DNA of 38,936 bases. Source: Candidatus Nanopelagicales bacterium (GTDB taxonomy: Bacteria; Actinomycetota; Actinomycetes; Nanopelagicales; Nanopelagicaceae). Below the pieces are notes generated by a model. It saw nothing but the letters and a program-made list of their open reading frames with translations. It searched no databases and had not been told where the DNA came from. The stretch lies in assembly GCA_030830475.1 (NCBI GenBank), contig JAURMX010000027.1:1-38936 (forward strand), given 5' to 3'. The position numbers and the translations under genes are program-made. Shown piece by piece: positions 24,782 through 31,727 of the stretch; position 1 is the first letter of the stretch; the number at the start of each line of letters is the position of its first letter.

Positions 24782-25666
24782 GTGGCCGATAAGAAGTTTC
24801 TATCTTGGGTTGGTTTCAAGGGCGAAGAAGAAGCCGATAAACCAAATCTTGCTGCCGGCTCAGCAGCGCTGGATCGAATCCGTGAACTGGAATCTCAGTT
24901 AAATGATCTGCGCTCTCGACGTGACATCACCTCTTTATCCAAAGAAGAGTTTGAAATCCTGGCAACTGAAACAGCGATGTCAATCATTCGCACCGCGCAA
25001 CAACGTGAAGCGAAAGCCAACTCAAACGCCGAACGCCTTTTGTCAGAGAGTAAGAAGCAGGCAACCAGTGCAATTGAAATTGCGGAGGCAAAAGCTAAAT
25101 CCACTTTGGCTCAGGCGGAATCACGCGGCCGTAAGTATTTAGAGGCGGCAGAAAATGATGCAGCCGATATTGTTTCCAAGGCTGAATCTGAGGCTGAGGA
25201 TCTACTTAACTCGAAGAAGCGCGAAGGCTCTCAAATTACCTCAAATGCAAAGAGAGAAGCTGAGCGTCTTGTCATGTCAGCCACCACTGAGGTTTCGGAG
25301 TATCGGAGCTGGCTGGCCGGTGTTATCTCTGAGGCCGAGCGGCTTTATCGGATTCAAACCCAATCTTTAGATGCTGCTGAAAACGCCATCTCACAATCAC
25401 GAGCTCGCTTAGAGTCGGCCTTCAATAGATTGGCGGAGTTACAAAAGCAGGTGGTTGGCGCTATCGCTGCAGATGGAACACCTACTGGTGATGCCAAGTT
25501 AGCCGCACGTGTTGCACAGGCCCAACAAAATGCAGCTGAACAAAACCACAACAAGAGCGCTACGACAAAACCATCTGGTGCCAAGAGCTCTGCCAAAAAG
25601 GTTTCCAAAAACACCTCAAAAAAAGCTAAAAGTAAAGCTAAGAAAACAACTGCGAAATCTCGGTGA
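24782..25666 (+). CDS. Coiled-coil protein with histone-H1-like lysine tail
   Basis: The function is not known. The 294-residue protein has a short N-terminal patch (MADKKFLSWVGFKGEEEADK), a coiled-coil segment (residues 27-48), a long Ala/Glu/Lys/Ser-rich helical region (54-225) resembling DivIVA- or ATP-synthase-b-like stalks, an Ala/Gln-rich linker, and a tail (257-294) of Lys/Ala/Ser/Thr like histone H1 C-termini. No membrane helix or signal peptide is seen, and the DivIVA N-terminal motif is absent. The start is GTG 24782, preceded by GAGGAG. It overlaps the acyltransferase start by 1 bp (TGATG), so the two are translationally coupled, hinting at a role at the cell envelope. Confidence 0.75.
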   Translation: MADKKFLSWVGFKGEEEADKPNLAAGSAALDRIRELESQLNDLRSRRDITSLSKEEFEILATETAMSIIRTAQQREAKANSNAERLLSESKKQATSAIEIAEAKAKSTLAQAESRGRKYLEAAENDAADIVSKAESEAEDLLNSKKREGSQITSNAKREAERLVMSATTEVSEYRSWLAGVISEAERLYRIQTQSLDAAENAISQSRARLESAFNRLAELQKQVVGAIAADGTPTGDAKLAARVAQAQQNAAEQNHNKSATTKPSGAKSSAKKVSKNTSKKAKSKAKKTTAKSR

Positions 25667-27417
25667 TGTCTAGCCCCACAAACCGCTACATCCACTCGGT
25701 AGATGGATTACGAGCGGTTGCGGTAATTGCAGTTCTGCTTTATCACCTTGGTATCGATTGGATTCCGGGTGGCTTTCTTGGGGTTGATTTATTCTTTGTC
25801 ATCTCTGGTTATGTGATTACTGGATTGATTCTGGAATCAATCGCCCGCTCTGGAACTTTGGATCTAAGAGCCTTTTACCTCAGCCGCGTCCGGCGTTTGC
25901 TTCCAGCGCTGATTGCCATGTTGGTTTTCACAACTCTGTATATCGGCGTATATGCGCCCGAAACAGTGCGCCGTTTCATCTCAGATATTCCATATGCATT
26001 GAGCGGAACCATGAACTGGGCGCTTGTGGCTCGGCAGCAGGATTACTTTGAAAGCATCGGCCGACCACCTTTGTTACAACACACTTGGTCACTAGCTGTT
26101 GAGGCGCAGTTCTATTTAATTTGGCCCTTGGTGTTGCTCTTTATTCTGCGTTACTTTGGCAAGAAAAATATTTCAATTGCAGCTCTAGCTATTGCATTGG
26201 CATCAGGAATAGCGCTGTTTGCTTATTCAATTCGAATTGATACCCAAGAATCAGCAATTAGCCATGTTTACTTTGGAACTGATACTCACTCAATTGGTTT
26301 ATTTTTAGGATCTGCCTTAGCTGTTAGCTGGAAACCCCAAAACTTAACTAGGGAGATCTCCAAGCGCGCGCAGGACTTCGTTGACCTGATTGGCGTATTT
26401 GGTTTTCTCGGCCTGCTCGCAACCTTTCTATTTATCAACGAGAGTGATCCCACTCTGTATCGAATCGCATTTCCCCTAGCCGCTATATTTGGTTGCTTTA
26501 CCTTAATTTCGGTGGTTCATCCCGCATCACGATTTGCCCCTCTTTTAAGCAGCAGAGTGTTGATTTGGATCGGCGAACGTTCCTATGGCATTTATATCTG
26601 GCACTGGATCGTTTTTCAGCTTACTCGACCATCGATAGATTTGGTGGGCGATGATTGGGCCCTTTACGCCCTTCGGGTTCTAATTGTTTTTGCCTTGGCT
26701 GATATCTCTCTGCGCTATATCGAGATTCCGGTGCGCCGTGGTTACTTTGAGCTTTGGTTCCGCGGCATGAAGTACCGGACTAAATCCGTACGGTTACGTC
26801 AGAAGCTCTTCGCTTCCTGCGCCGTAATTGTCACACTTTTTTCCACCACTCTCGTATCAGTTAATGCCATGAATCGAGCTGATGAGATCATTGCCGCTGA
26901 GAAGGCTGCGGTCGCCACTGAGGATGACGTTGATCAAGTAGTAACTGATGCTGACACTCCAGGGCTTTGGGTTACCGGTGATTCGGTGATACTCGGCATT
27001 CGCAACGTTTTAGCTAAGTATGAGCGGATTGAATTAATTAATGCCCGAGTTGGAAGGCAAATAAGTGAGTTAATTGAGGTGGCACAAACCGATCAACAAT
27101 TTGTCGCTGACTCGCCTGTTGTTTTGAATCTTGGTAACAACAACCGCTTAGTTGAATCAGATGTCATATCAATGATGGAGGTTGTGCGAAATCAGCCCAA
27201 GATTATTGTGGTGAACACCGCGGTGCCGCGGAGTTGGAAGGATGAAAACAATCAGATTATTAGCTCAGTGGTGGCCCGATATCCCAATACAATCTTGGTG
27301 GACTGGGATCGCATCTCTGAAAATTACCCTGAGTACTTTGCCAGCGATGGTGTTCATCTAAATCCTCCTGGGGTCAACGCTTATGTTGCAGCGATTCGCG
27401 AAGTTTTAAATAAATAA
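25666..27417 (+). CDS. Membrane acyltransferase 3 fused to SGNH domain (OatA-like)
   Basis: The 583-residue protein has an N-terminal acyltransferase-3 domain with about ten or eleven membrane helices: YIHSVDGLRAVAVIAVLLYH with the conserved His, GVDLFFVISGYVITGLIL, and YLSRVRRLLPALIA. A C-terminal extracytoplasmic SGNH domain follows, with GDS near 438-440, LGNN and the Asp/His pair in DGVHLNPPG near 561-564. This layout moves acyl (often acetyl) groups across the membrane onto wall polymers, as OatA does for peptidoglycan. ATG 25666 overlaps the upstream stop; GTG 25663 is an alternative. The acceptor is unknown. Confidence 0.88.
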   Translation: MSSPTNRYIHSVDGLRAVAVIAVLLYHLGIDWIPGGFLGVDLFFVISGYVITGLILESIARSGTLDLRAFYLSRVRRLLPALIAMLVFTTLYIGVYAPETVRRFISDIPYALSGTMNWALVARQQDYFESIGRPPLLQHTWSLAVEAQFYLIWPLVLLFILRYFGKKNISIAALAIALASGIALFAYSIRIDTQESAISHVYFGTDTHSIGLFLGSALAVSWKPQNLTREISKRAQDFVDLIGVFGFLGLLATFLFINESDPTLYRIAFPLAAIFGCFTLISVVHPASRFAPLLSSRVLIWIGERSYGIYIWHWIVFQLTRPSIDLVGDDWALYALRVLIVFALADISLRYIEIPVRRGYFELWFRGMKYRTKSVRLRQKLFASCAVIVTLFSTTLVSVNAMNRADEIIAAEKAAVATEDDVDQVVTDADTPGLWVTGDSVILGIRNVLAKYERIELINARVGRQISELIEVAQTDQQFVADSPVVLNLGNNNRLVESDVISMMEVVRNQPKIIVVNTAVPRSWKDENNQIISSVVARYPNTILVDWDRISENYPEYFASDGVHLNPPGVNAYVAAIREVLNK

Positions 27418-27475: not shown

Positions 27476-28297
27476 TTATTGAAACTTACCCTTTAAAGAG
27501 AACTTCTTAGCATCAACTTTGGTGCCATCGGAGTAGACCGACTGAAGTAGGAACTGAGTTCCACCCTCATCACCGACCTTAGCAATTTCGTAGGAGAGTT
27601 GATCCGCTGCAACCGTGGTTACTTCAGTGAAATCAACCGCGTTGTAGGAAACTGAGATTACATATCCGGTGAGACCTTCTGTTGCATCTGGAGCCTTCCA
27701 GCGCAGAGTTACGCCTTCGCTGCCATTAGCAATTGCTACGAAGCTTTGTGGAGCTTCATATGCAGAAAGCGCTGGCTCTTCACTTGCGCTTTCAGATGGT
27801 TCCGCGGTTGGCTCCTCAGAAACAGACTCAGATGCGGTTGGAGTTGGTGTAGCACCTTCATCATCAGAGGAGTTGGTCAATGCAAAAATCGCGAGTAGAA
27901 CTACGCCAGCAATTACCAAGAACAAAACATTGCTAGAACTTTTCTTTGCTGGTGCAGCTGGTGCCGCTGTTTTTGCAGGAGCTGGTGTGCTGGTTACTGC
28001 AGCGGTGCTGCGAGATGGAACCGGTGGAATAACAATCTTTGCAGCATCAACTTTTGCGCTCGCACTTTTCTTTGCTGCAACTTTCTTGATTGCTGGCTTC
28101 TTGGTTGCTGACTTCTTGGTTGCTGGCTTCTTGGCTGCGGCTTTCTTAATCGGACGCTTTGCCGATTTCTTTACAGCTTTCTTGGCGGTTTTCTTAACCG
28201 CTTTCTTGCCCGATTTGTTAGCCACTTTTTTGGCCGGGCGCTTTGCAGCCGCCTTTTTAACTGGGCGCTTTGCAGAAGCTTTCTTCTTTGCTGCCAC
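27476..28297 (-). CDS. H1-like tail, one membrane helix and FN3-like domain protein
   Basis: The function is not known. The 273-residue protein has a Lys/Ala/Pro-rich N-terminal tail (residues 1-87, repeated KKAxAKRPxKK units like bacterial histone H1-like proteins), a Pro/Ala/Thr linker, one membrane helix at 123-141 (VLFLVIAGVVLLAIFAL), an acidic Ser/Glu/Pro linker (142-178) and a C-terminal fibronectin-III-like domain (about 182-273, with VTLRWKAP and GYVISVSYN). By the positive-inside rule the tail is cytosolic and the FN3 domain is outside. The start is GTG 28297 with strong GAAGGAG. It could tether DNA, RNA or acidic partners to the envelope, but this is inference. Confidence 0.8.
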   Translation of the reverse strand: MAAKKKASAKRPVKKAAAKRPAKKVANKSGKKAVKKTAKKAVKKSAKRPIKKAAAKKPATKKSATKKPAIKKVAAKKSASAKVDAAKIVIPPVPSRSTAAVTSTPAPAKTAAPAAPAKKSSSNVLFLVIAGVVLLAIFALTNSSDDEGATPTPTASESVSEEPTAEPSESASEEPALSAYEAPQSFVAIANGSEGVTLRWKAPDATEGLTGYVISVSYNAVDFTEVTTVAADQLSYEIAKVGDEGGTQFLLQSVYSDGTKVDAKKFSLKGKFQ

Positions 28298-30947: not shown

Positions 30948-31727
30948 TTGCTTCAATTAACAGCAACCCAGTGGAGCGTTGTTTACAACATCCTTTCATT
31001 CGGACTTGTATCAATGCTTGCTACAACTGTTTACACCCTAGTTTCACAGCACCGCGTTCTTCCTAAGTATCGCAACGCGCTTGTGCTTTCCTCAATGGTT
31101 ACCTTTATCGCTGGTTACCACTACCTACGTATTTTTGATTCATTCAAAGATGCAACCGCAGAGGGCACATTCAATGTTGCCCATGATGTTAATGCCAGCT
31201 CAATGGCATTCAACGAGGGTTACCGCTACGTAGACTGGATTCTTACAGTTCCATTGCTTCTTGTTGAGGTAATTGCAGTTCTTGCTCTCGCTAAGGAAGC
31301 ATCCAAGTCAATGATCATGCGTCTTGTTCCTGCATCAGCAGCAATGATCGCACTTGGCTATCCTGGAGAGACCTCTTCAGATCAGGGTGAGAAGATTATG
31401 TGGGGCGTTCTCTCCACAATTCCATTCCTATACATTCTTTACGTACTATTCGTAGAGCTTGGTAAGTCACTTGATCGTCAGCCAGAAGGTGTTGCAGCAA
31501 CCATCGGTCGCCTACGTCTTCTACTTATCGCATCATGGGGCGTTTACCCAATCTCCTACCTACTTCCAATCATCGATGCAGATGGAGCAGCAAGCTCTGG
31601 AGCATTCGTTGGACGTCAAGTTGGTTACACCATCGCTGACGTAGTTGCGAAGTGCGTATGGGGTCTAACAATTCTAAAGATCGCTCGCATGAAGTCCATT
31701 GCAGAAGGCATGAAGGACGATCACTAA
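30948..31727 (+). CDS. Actinorhodopsin, light-driven proton pump
   Basis: The 259-residue protein is a seven-helix microbial rhodopsin. Helix C carries Asp96, Thr100 and Glu107 in YRYVDWILTVPLLLVE, the D-T-E pattern of proton pumps of the proteorhodopsin/xanthorhodopsin group. Lys235 in DVVAKCVWG binds retinal, and His58 (GYHYLRIF) matches the proteorhodopsin His75. Leu104 at the tuning position suggests green absorption. IALGYPGE and STIPFLYILYVLFVELGKSL are typical of actinorhodopsins. TTG start with GGAGG. Codon use is strongly biased, as for a highly expressed gene. No retinal or carotenoid gene is nearby. Confidence 0.95.
   Translation: MLQLTATQWSVVYNILSFGLVSMLATTVYTLVSQHRVLPKYRNALVLSSMVTFIAGYHYLRIFDSFKDATAEGTFNVAHDVNASSMAFNEGYRYVDWILTVPLLLVEVIAVLALAKEASKSMIMRLVPASAAMIALGYPGETSSDQGEKIMWGVLSTIPFLYILYVLFVELGKSLDRQPEGVAATIGRLRLLLIASWGVYPISYLLPIIDADGAASSGAFVGRQVGYTIADVVAKCVWGLTILKIARMKSIAEGMKDDH

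Follow-up and report, generated by a model that had tools for sequence, protein, structure and literature searches.

Why should a gene for a helical protein with a histone-like tail lie directly in front of a gene for a wall-modifying enzyme? The question was raised by a stretch of 38,936 nucleotides (the window), which is contig C15 in a Nanopelagicaceae (acI) genome of 1.22 Mb and 90.7% completeness. Its best matches among named records were Candidatus Nanopelagicaceae and Actinomycetota MAGs, with a top protein identity of 93%. The original prediction described an Ala/Glu-rich helical protein (here called CC) ending in a Lys/Ser/Ala/Thr tail of nucleic-acid-binding type and overlapping an OatA-like acyltransferase by one base. 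All of these features were confirmed, and the two genes are linked as it proposed, but it missed a third conserved gene and the family-wide absence of DivIVA. The features are listed in Table 1.

Table 1. Position of the three genes, their parts and the regions examined for divIVA. Coordinates refer to the window except in the last three lines, where they refer to the contigs named.
Feature	Position	Strand	Basis or remark
CC gene	24782..25666	+	GTG start, 294 aa; no family at cut-off; single copy in genome
CC N-terminal motif, residues 1-14, F-L-[SN]-W-V-G-F-K-G-E-E type	24782..24823	+	
CC near-invariant block, residues 46-66, RRDITSLSKEEFEILATETAM	24917..24979	+	Invariant columns, alignment A1
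CC long helix, residues 54-227 (174 residues)	24941..25462	+	AlphaFold2, periodicity
CC Lys/Ser/Ala/Thr tail, residues 253-294	25538..25663	+	Charge, composition, low pLDDT
OatA-like acyltransferase	25666..27417	+	AT3 and SGNH domains
Third gene	27476..28297	-	H1-like tail, one TM helix, Ser/Glu/Pro linker, fn3-like domain
Third-gene Lys/Ala/Pro H1-like tail, residues 1-82 (about 90 residues)	28052..28297	-	
Third-gene predicted transmembrane helix, residues 122-141	27875..27934	-	
Third-gene fn3-like domain, residues 181-273	27479..27757	-	
ylmG-ileS slot region, L174	8316-13853		
ylmG-ileS slot region, L175	4551-8062		
ylmG-ileS slot region, L176	4550-8041		

A Shine-Dalgarno-like GGAG sits just 5' of the CC start. 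No Pfam, NCBIfam or PHROGs model matched CC over its curated cut-off, and the PHROGs scan for phage origin found nothing for CC or for the third gene. Against solved structures the sole match was the ATP synthase b subunit (E 0.086). The body of the protein is Ala/Glu-rich. Its AlphaFold2 model, built from 42 sequences as a single chain only, comprises a helix at residues 23-45, a loop and then the single long helix, with both ends disordered; pLDDT was above 95 over most of the long helix and pTM was 0.32. The hydrophobic periodicity of the window protein peaked near 3.64 residues, which is hendecad-like. Counts for CC refer to the best 80 of 181 relatives found in genome contigs, or to 81 proteins when the window protein is added. 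Among these 81 the best of four trial periods was 3.6 in 80 and 3.667 in one. The motif W-[VIM]-G-[FY] is present in 80/81 proteins, the lone exception (L050) being truncated at a contig start, and W9, G11 and F12 are invariant in alignment A1. In the model, the near-invariant block consists of a loop (residues 46-53) and the onset of the long helix at residue 54. Mean consensus shares were 0.86 (residues 1-14), 0.87-0.88 (residues 30-80) and 0.82 (residues 171-224).

From residue 225 to residue 294 charge is conserved and sequence is not (consensus share 0.36). The tail is net positive in all 81 proteins (+7 to +17), and none of them is without it. Over the final 35 positions, the 80 orthologues contain 29% Lys, 19% Ala, 12% Ser and 7% Arg. 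Repeats of the AKK/PAKK type are present in the tails of many orthologues; [AP]KK is missing from the last 40 residues in 17 of the 80. H1-like tails recur in Nanopelagicaceae genomes, and the CC tail may be a habit of the lineage. A DksA/TraR-like protein encoded beside ileS also has a long Lys/Ala/Pro-rich N-terminal tail (L175, 3726-4577, minus strand; L176, 3376-4305, minus strand). With Lys-rich tails elsewhere in the lineage, the CC tail alone is no proof of DNA binding. Among the literature matches listed, there was no acI lineage paper on lysine-rich or histone-like proteins.

The second gene encodes an AT3 membrane domain at residues 9-345 (PF01757, E 1.6e-30, 106.7 bits against a cut-off of 31) followed from about residue 434 by an SGNH domain, which is expected to be located outside the membrane. 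The latter matched 6VJP with E 1.2e-16 and 6WN9 also at about 1e-16; the structure records say just 'Acetyltransferase', and we take both to be OatA of S. aureus. The window protein was aligned with 70 of the 80 orthologues, and D13, R16, H27, G438-D439-S440 and D561 are invariant in all 71 sequences, while H564 is kept in 70 with one gap. Following the AT3 and SGNH families, we presume these to include the catalytic residues. The enzyme thus has in common with OatA the AT3 plus SGNH architecture as well as the catalytic residues. The NCBIfam model for mycobacterial SucT matched at 83.4 bits, far under its cut-off of 1275. At one locus (L054) the acyltransferase is broken into three frames downstream of an intact CC gene, which is probably an assembly error or a pseudogene.

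The third gene lies between the acyltransferase gene and Ham1 and is convergent to the former, and is therefore outside the transcript of CC and the acyltransferase. It was found in all 71 loci that reach past the acyltransferase; the other 9 of the 80 end there. Its start is apparently cut by a contig end in 4 of the 71 (L069, L075, L080 and L082), and L103 contains Ns. Where the N-terminus is intact, positions 1-60 contain 16-28 Lys and no more than one acidic residue. A single hydrophobic helix follows, and this tail is even more histone-like than that of CC. In the structural model the tail is disordered, a helix covers residues 122-141 and a beta-sandwich covers residues 181-273 with pLDDT > 90. 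Foldseek returned 199 matches at E 0.001 or better, and the 50 listed were mainly fn3 domains. The Pfam fn3 match was weak (E 0.0059, under the cut-off).

The original prediction drew joint function from translational coupling. The CC stop codon TGA (25664-25666) overlaps the acyltransferase ATG at base 25666, and with a start at the GTG of 25663 the overlap would instead be 4 bases. The window has 28 codirectional pairs of genes, of which 6 overlap and 13 overlap or lie within 10 bases. The distance between the two genes in the 80 loci was -4 in 10, -1 in 16, +5 to +7 in 40 and +16 to +88 in 14. Because overlaps are ordinary in the window and this one is not strictly conserved, the overlap itself is weak evidence of linkage. 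What supports the linkage is that the two genes are conserved as neighbours and are present together. In 80/80 loci (the best 80 of 181 relatives) the acyltransferase is the next gene downstream of CC, on the same strand.

Joint presence was counted in one set of 201 Nanopelagicaceae genomes, many of which are incomplete MAGs. CC was found in 178, and 174 had an acyltransferase orthologue at E 1e-50 or better. Both genes were present in 174 genomes, neither in 23, CC alone in 4 (G036, G111, G148 and G173) and the enzyme alone in none. Presence and absence were thus concordant in 197/201 (Fisher p 1.8e-26, kinship ignored). The third gene, at E 1e-17 or better, was found in 172/201, six weaker fn3 matches (E 1e-5 to 1e-9) being scored absent. 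All three genes were present in 170 genomes and none in 22. The partial sets were CC with the enzyme in 4 (G037, G140, G164 and G174), CC with the third gene in 1 (G148), CC only in 3 and the third gene only in 1 (G189). In G036, which belongs to genus g10, a CC match of E 9e-46 stands without an acyltransferase orthologue; contamination or a contig edge may explain it.

Absences were also inspected. In 15 of the 23 genomes without the pair, the CC profile gave no match up to E 10 in a search without a positive control of its own; the same profile matched 94/345 genomes in a separate search of the class. The acyltransferase query found in those 15 either nothing or distant AT3 relatives at E 2e-42 or worse. 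Five genomes without the pair (G009, G005, G012, G020 and G047) have an intact Ham1-Rph-MurI locus with no module gene beside Ham1. In G021, also counted as lacking the pair, a Lys-rich ORF lies beside Ham1 and then the contig ends, so this absence is an assembly edge. Linkage of CC, the acyltransferase and the third gene as a family-restricted three-gene module is well supported.

One paper, in the part available, calls DivIVA essential to the polar growth of Actinomycetota (PMC12585849). PF05103 (DivIVA) was found in 0/121 Nanopelagicaceae genomes. In a set of 148 genomes of the class it was found in 129; 11 of the 148 are family members, all without it, which leaves 129/137 outside the family. 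In the control genome G201 the gene order is sepF, ylmG, divIVA, ileS, and further ORFs separate the first two. By our reading of the ORFs as ylmG and ileS, the two genes abut in G001 and G009 and are separated by two unrelated genes in the genome of the window. The DivIVA motif was present in the control and in none of five ylmG-ileS regions of the family. Nanopelagicaceae appear to have lost DivIVA. It is also missing in genera without the module (G002, G005 and G009), and the module is therefore not a simple DivIVA substitute. No paper joining Nanopelagicales with DivIVA was found. Among the matches listed, DivIVA was absent from the Planktophila and genome-streamlining papers, and no title on DivIVA loss in Actinobacteria or Actinomycetota concerned the Nanopelagicaceae lineage. 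SteA and SteB are reported absent from Nanopelagicales in the available part of the SteAB paper.

We propose that the three genes form a lineage-specific module connecting a wall acyltransferase with the nucleoid and with the inner surface of the envelope, and give this reading a probability of roughly 0.4. It best accounts for the adjacency in 80/80 loci, the co-occurrence, the basic tails in 81/81 proteins, the conserved catalytic residues and the missing DivIVA, and it has precedents. Several points weigh against it: Lys-rich tails also occur outside the module, module-free genera lack DivIVA too, 17 of 80 CC tails have no [AP]KK near their end, the helical moment of the N-terminal motif is low, and the third gene lies in a separate transcript. 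CC would serve as a coiled-coil strut in the cytoplasm and is probably oligomeric; if straight, its 174-residue helix would measure about 26 nm at 0.15 nm per residue. The conserved W-V-G-F motif may dock on a partner or on the membrane, and the basic, disordered tail would bind DNA, the option we favour, or else anionic lipid. Outside the membrane, a wall polymer would be O-acylated by the OatA-like enzyme. The third protein, with a putative topology that places its H1-like tail in the cytoplasm and fn3 outside, could link chromosome and wall through the membrane. Such a module may set the position or timing of wall acylation, and of septal or polar growth, with respect to the chromosome.

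Three precedents make each of these steps plausible by analogy. HbhA of Mycobacterium tuberculosis has, in the portion of the source available (PMC10665949), a hydrophobic N-terminal part, a coiled coil and an AKKA tail that binds DNA. Like CC, it combines an N-proximal hydrophobic stretch, a coiled coil and a C-terminal Lys-rich tail. Judged from the same portion (PMC10665949), the CC helix is longer (174 residues against 81 in the HbhA coil) and its tail has fewer AKKA-type repeats. The Pfam, NCBIfam and PHROGs scans gave no HbhA family match for CC, and CC, unlike HbhA, is linked to an acyltransferase. Rv3852 of M. tuberculosis is a membrane-anchored nucleoid-associated protein (NAP) with KAAK/PAAK repeats that binds Wag31 and, in the available account, affects the polar place of Wag31 and nascent peptidoglycan (PMC8233713). 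In that account Rv3852 and Wag31, like the proposed module, pair a membrane-anchored H1-like protein of Lys/Ala/Pro repeats with a coiled-coil scaffold acting on envelope growth (PMC8233713). The TM helix of Rv3852 is C-terminal as the source describes it, while that of the third protein is central with fn3 after it. CC is no Wag31 homologue, and the module, unlike Rv3852-Wag31, includes a wall acyltransferase. OatA of L. plantarum was found at mid-cell, and its control of septation is ascribed, in the part of the paper at hand, to the transmembrane domain without need of catalysis (PMC3482227).

The proposed module would couple protein types known separately in mycobacteria, namely a coil with a Lys tail and a membrane-anchored Lys tail, with a wall acyltransferase. 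The three genes are also concrete candidates for how cells that are very small and abundant position their division and wall growth in the absence of DivIVA. That Nanopelagicaceae, having apparently lost DivIVA, use the module as a physical chromosome-membrane-wall link positioning wall modification is a further step, which we hold to be rather unlikely. If true, it would be a novel form of coupling between nucleoid and envelope, in a bacterial group that is among the most abundant in fresh water.

The basic tail fits an anionic membrane equally well. CC could accordingly be a scaffold of the cytoskeleton or the membrane, its tail binding anionic phospholipid and not DNA, with the enzyme as its client and the third protein as an independent wall anchor. 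The client would be a membrane enzyme, in keeping with this, and a tail that keeps its charge and not its sequence (0.36 against 0.82-0.88 elsewhere in CC) also favours it. However, AKK/PAKK-type repeats, of the sort to which the available portion of the HbhA source ascribes DNA binding, occur in many CC tails, and the neighbouring third gene has a stronger H1-like tail. We regard lipid binding of this kind as possible and on balance doubtful.

The genes might also be merely operon-like neighbours in a streamlined genome with no common task, CC being an HbhA-like NAP and the enzyme only wall-modifying. Short gaps and overlaps are common in the window, as counted above, and the flanking Ham1-Rph-MurI block is also syntenic without an obvious link. 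Inertial synteny does not suffice, however, where three genes come and go as a block while their flanks stay. In addition, the glutamate dehydrogenase gene upstream adjoins CC only within the near genus. We consider a neighbourhood without a shared task unlikely, and the functional module remains the preferred reading.

The original prediction also offered a DivIVA-like scaffold as a model for CC. The DivIVA-like domain, shared by DivIVA, GpsB, FilP and Scy, is described in the available part of PMC9858780 as having the motif GYDxxEVD in a loop before a dimerising helix. This motif was found in 0/81 CC proteins, and neither CC nor its genome gave a PF05103 match. When the N-terminal region of CC was compared by hhalign with 10 DivIVA and 6 FilP/Scy-like sequences, the probabilities were 0.2-5.4%. 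Full-length CC scored 93.3% with FilP/Scy against 91.1% for the reversed control, and 51.2% with DivIVA against 36.4% reversed. In the class search, matches to CC outside the family covered part of the coil alone and none reached the N-terminal motif. That CC is a diverged member of the DivIVA/FilP/Scy family, now without the N-terminal motif and filling the role of the missing DivIVA, is very improbable. In its favour are weak matches, one to Scy (E 4e-5) and others to extended coils from further Actinomycetes (best E 6.4e-10), an order of short helix, loop and long helix that recalls the DivIVA-like domain, and the absence of DivIVA from the family. Against it, the motif is missing throughout, the N-terminal probabilities are low, the full-length scores are nearly reached by the reversed controls, and genera without the module lack DivIVA as well.

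CC was thus rejected as a member of the DivIVA family on motif and profile tests, and the model stands as an analogy only. Like the scaffolds DivIVA, FilP, Scy and SepIVA, as far as they are described in the available parts of PMC9858780 and PMC11571769, CC is a long coil with hendecad-type periodicity and likely an envelope scaffold; it differs from them in having neither the DivIVA-like motif nor convincing profile similarity. The resemblance is at most one of style. The CC loop RRDIT[SG]LSKEEFE was considered as a counterpart of RGYDxxEVD and was dropped, its topology being alike and its profile support none.

A SepF-like membrane-targeting helix at the CC N-terminus was likewise considered, W-V-G-F resembling the Y-L-G-L start of SepF from the same genomes. 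The helical hydrophobic moment was 0.14-0.15 in two CC proteins and 0.35 in a third, and 0.36 and 0.54 in two SepF starts. As the moment of the motif is low (0.15), an amphipathic membrane helix is not favoured; the resemblance is kept as a lead. Elsewhere in the window, the ORF at 30948-31727 resembles a microbial rhodopsin, presumably of the actinorhodopsin type, judging from the look of the sequence.
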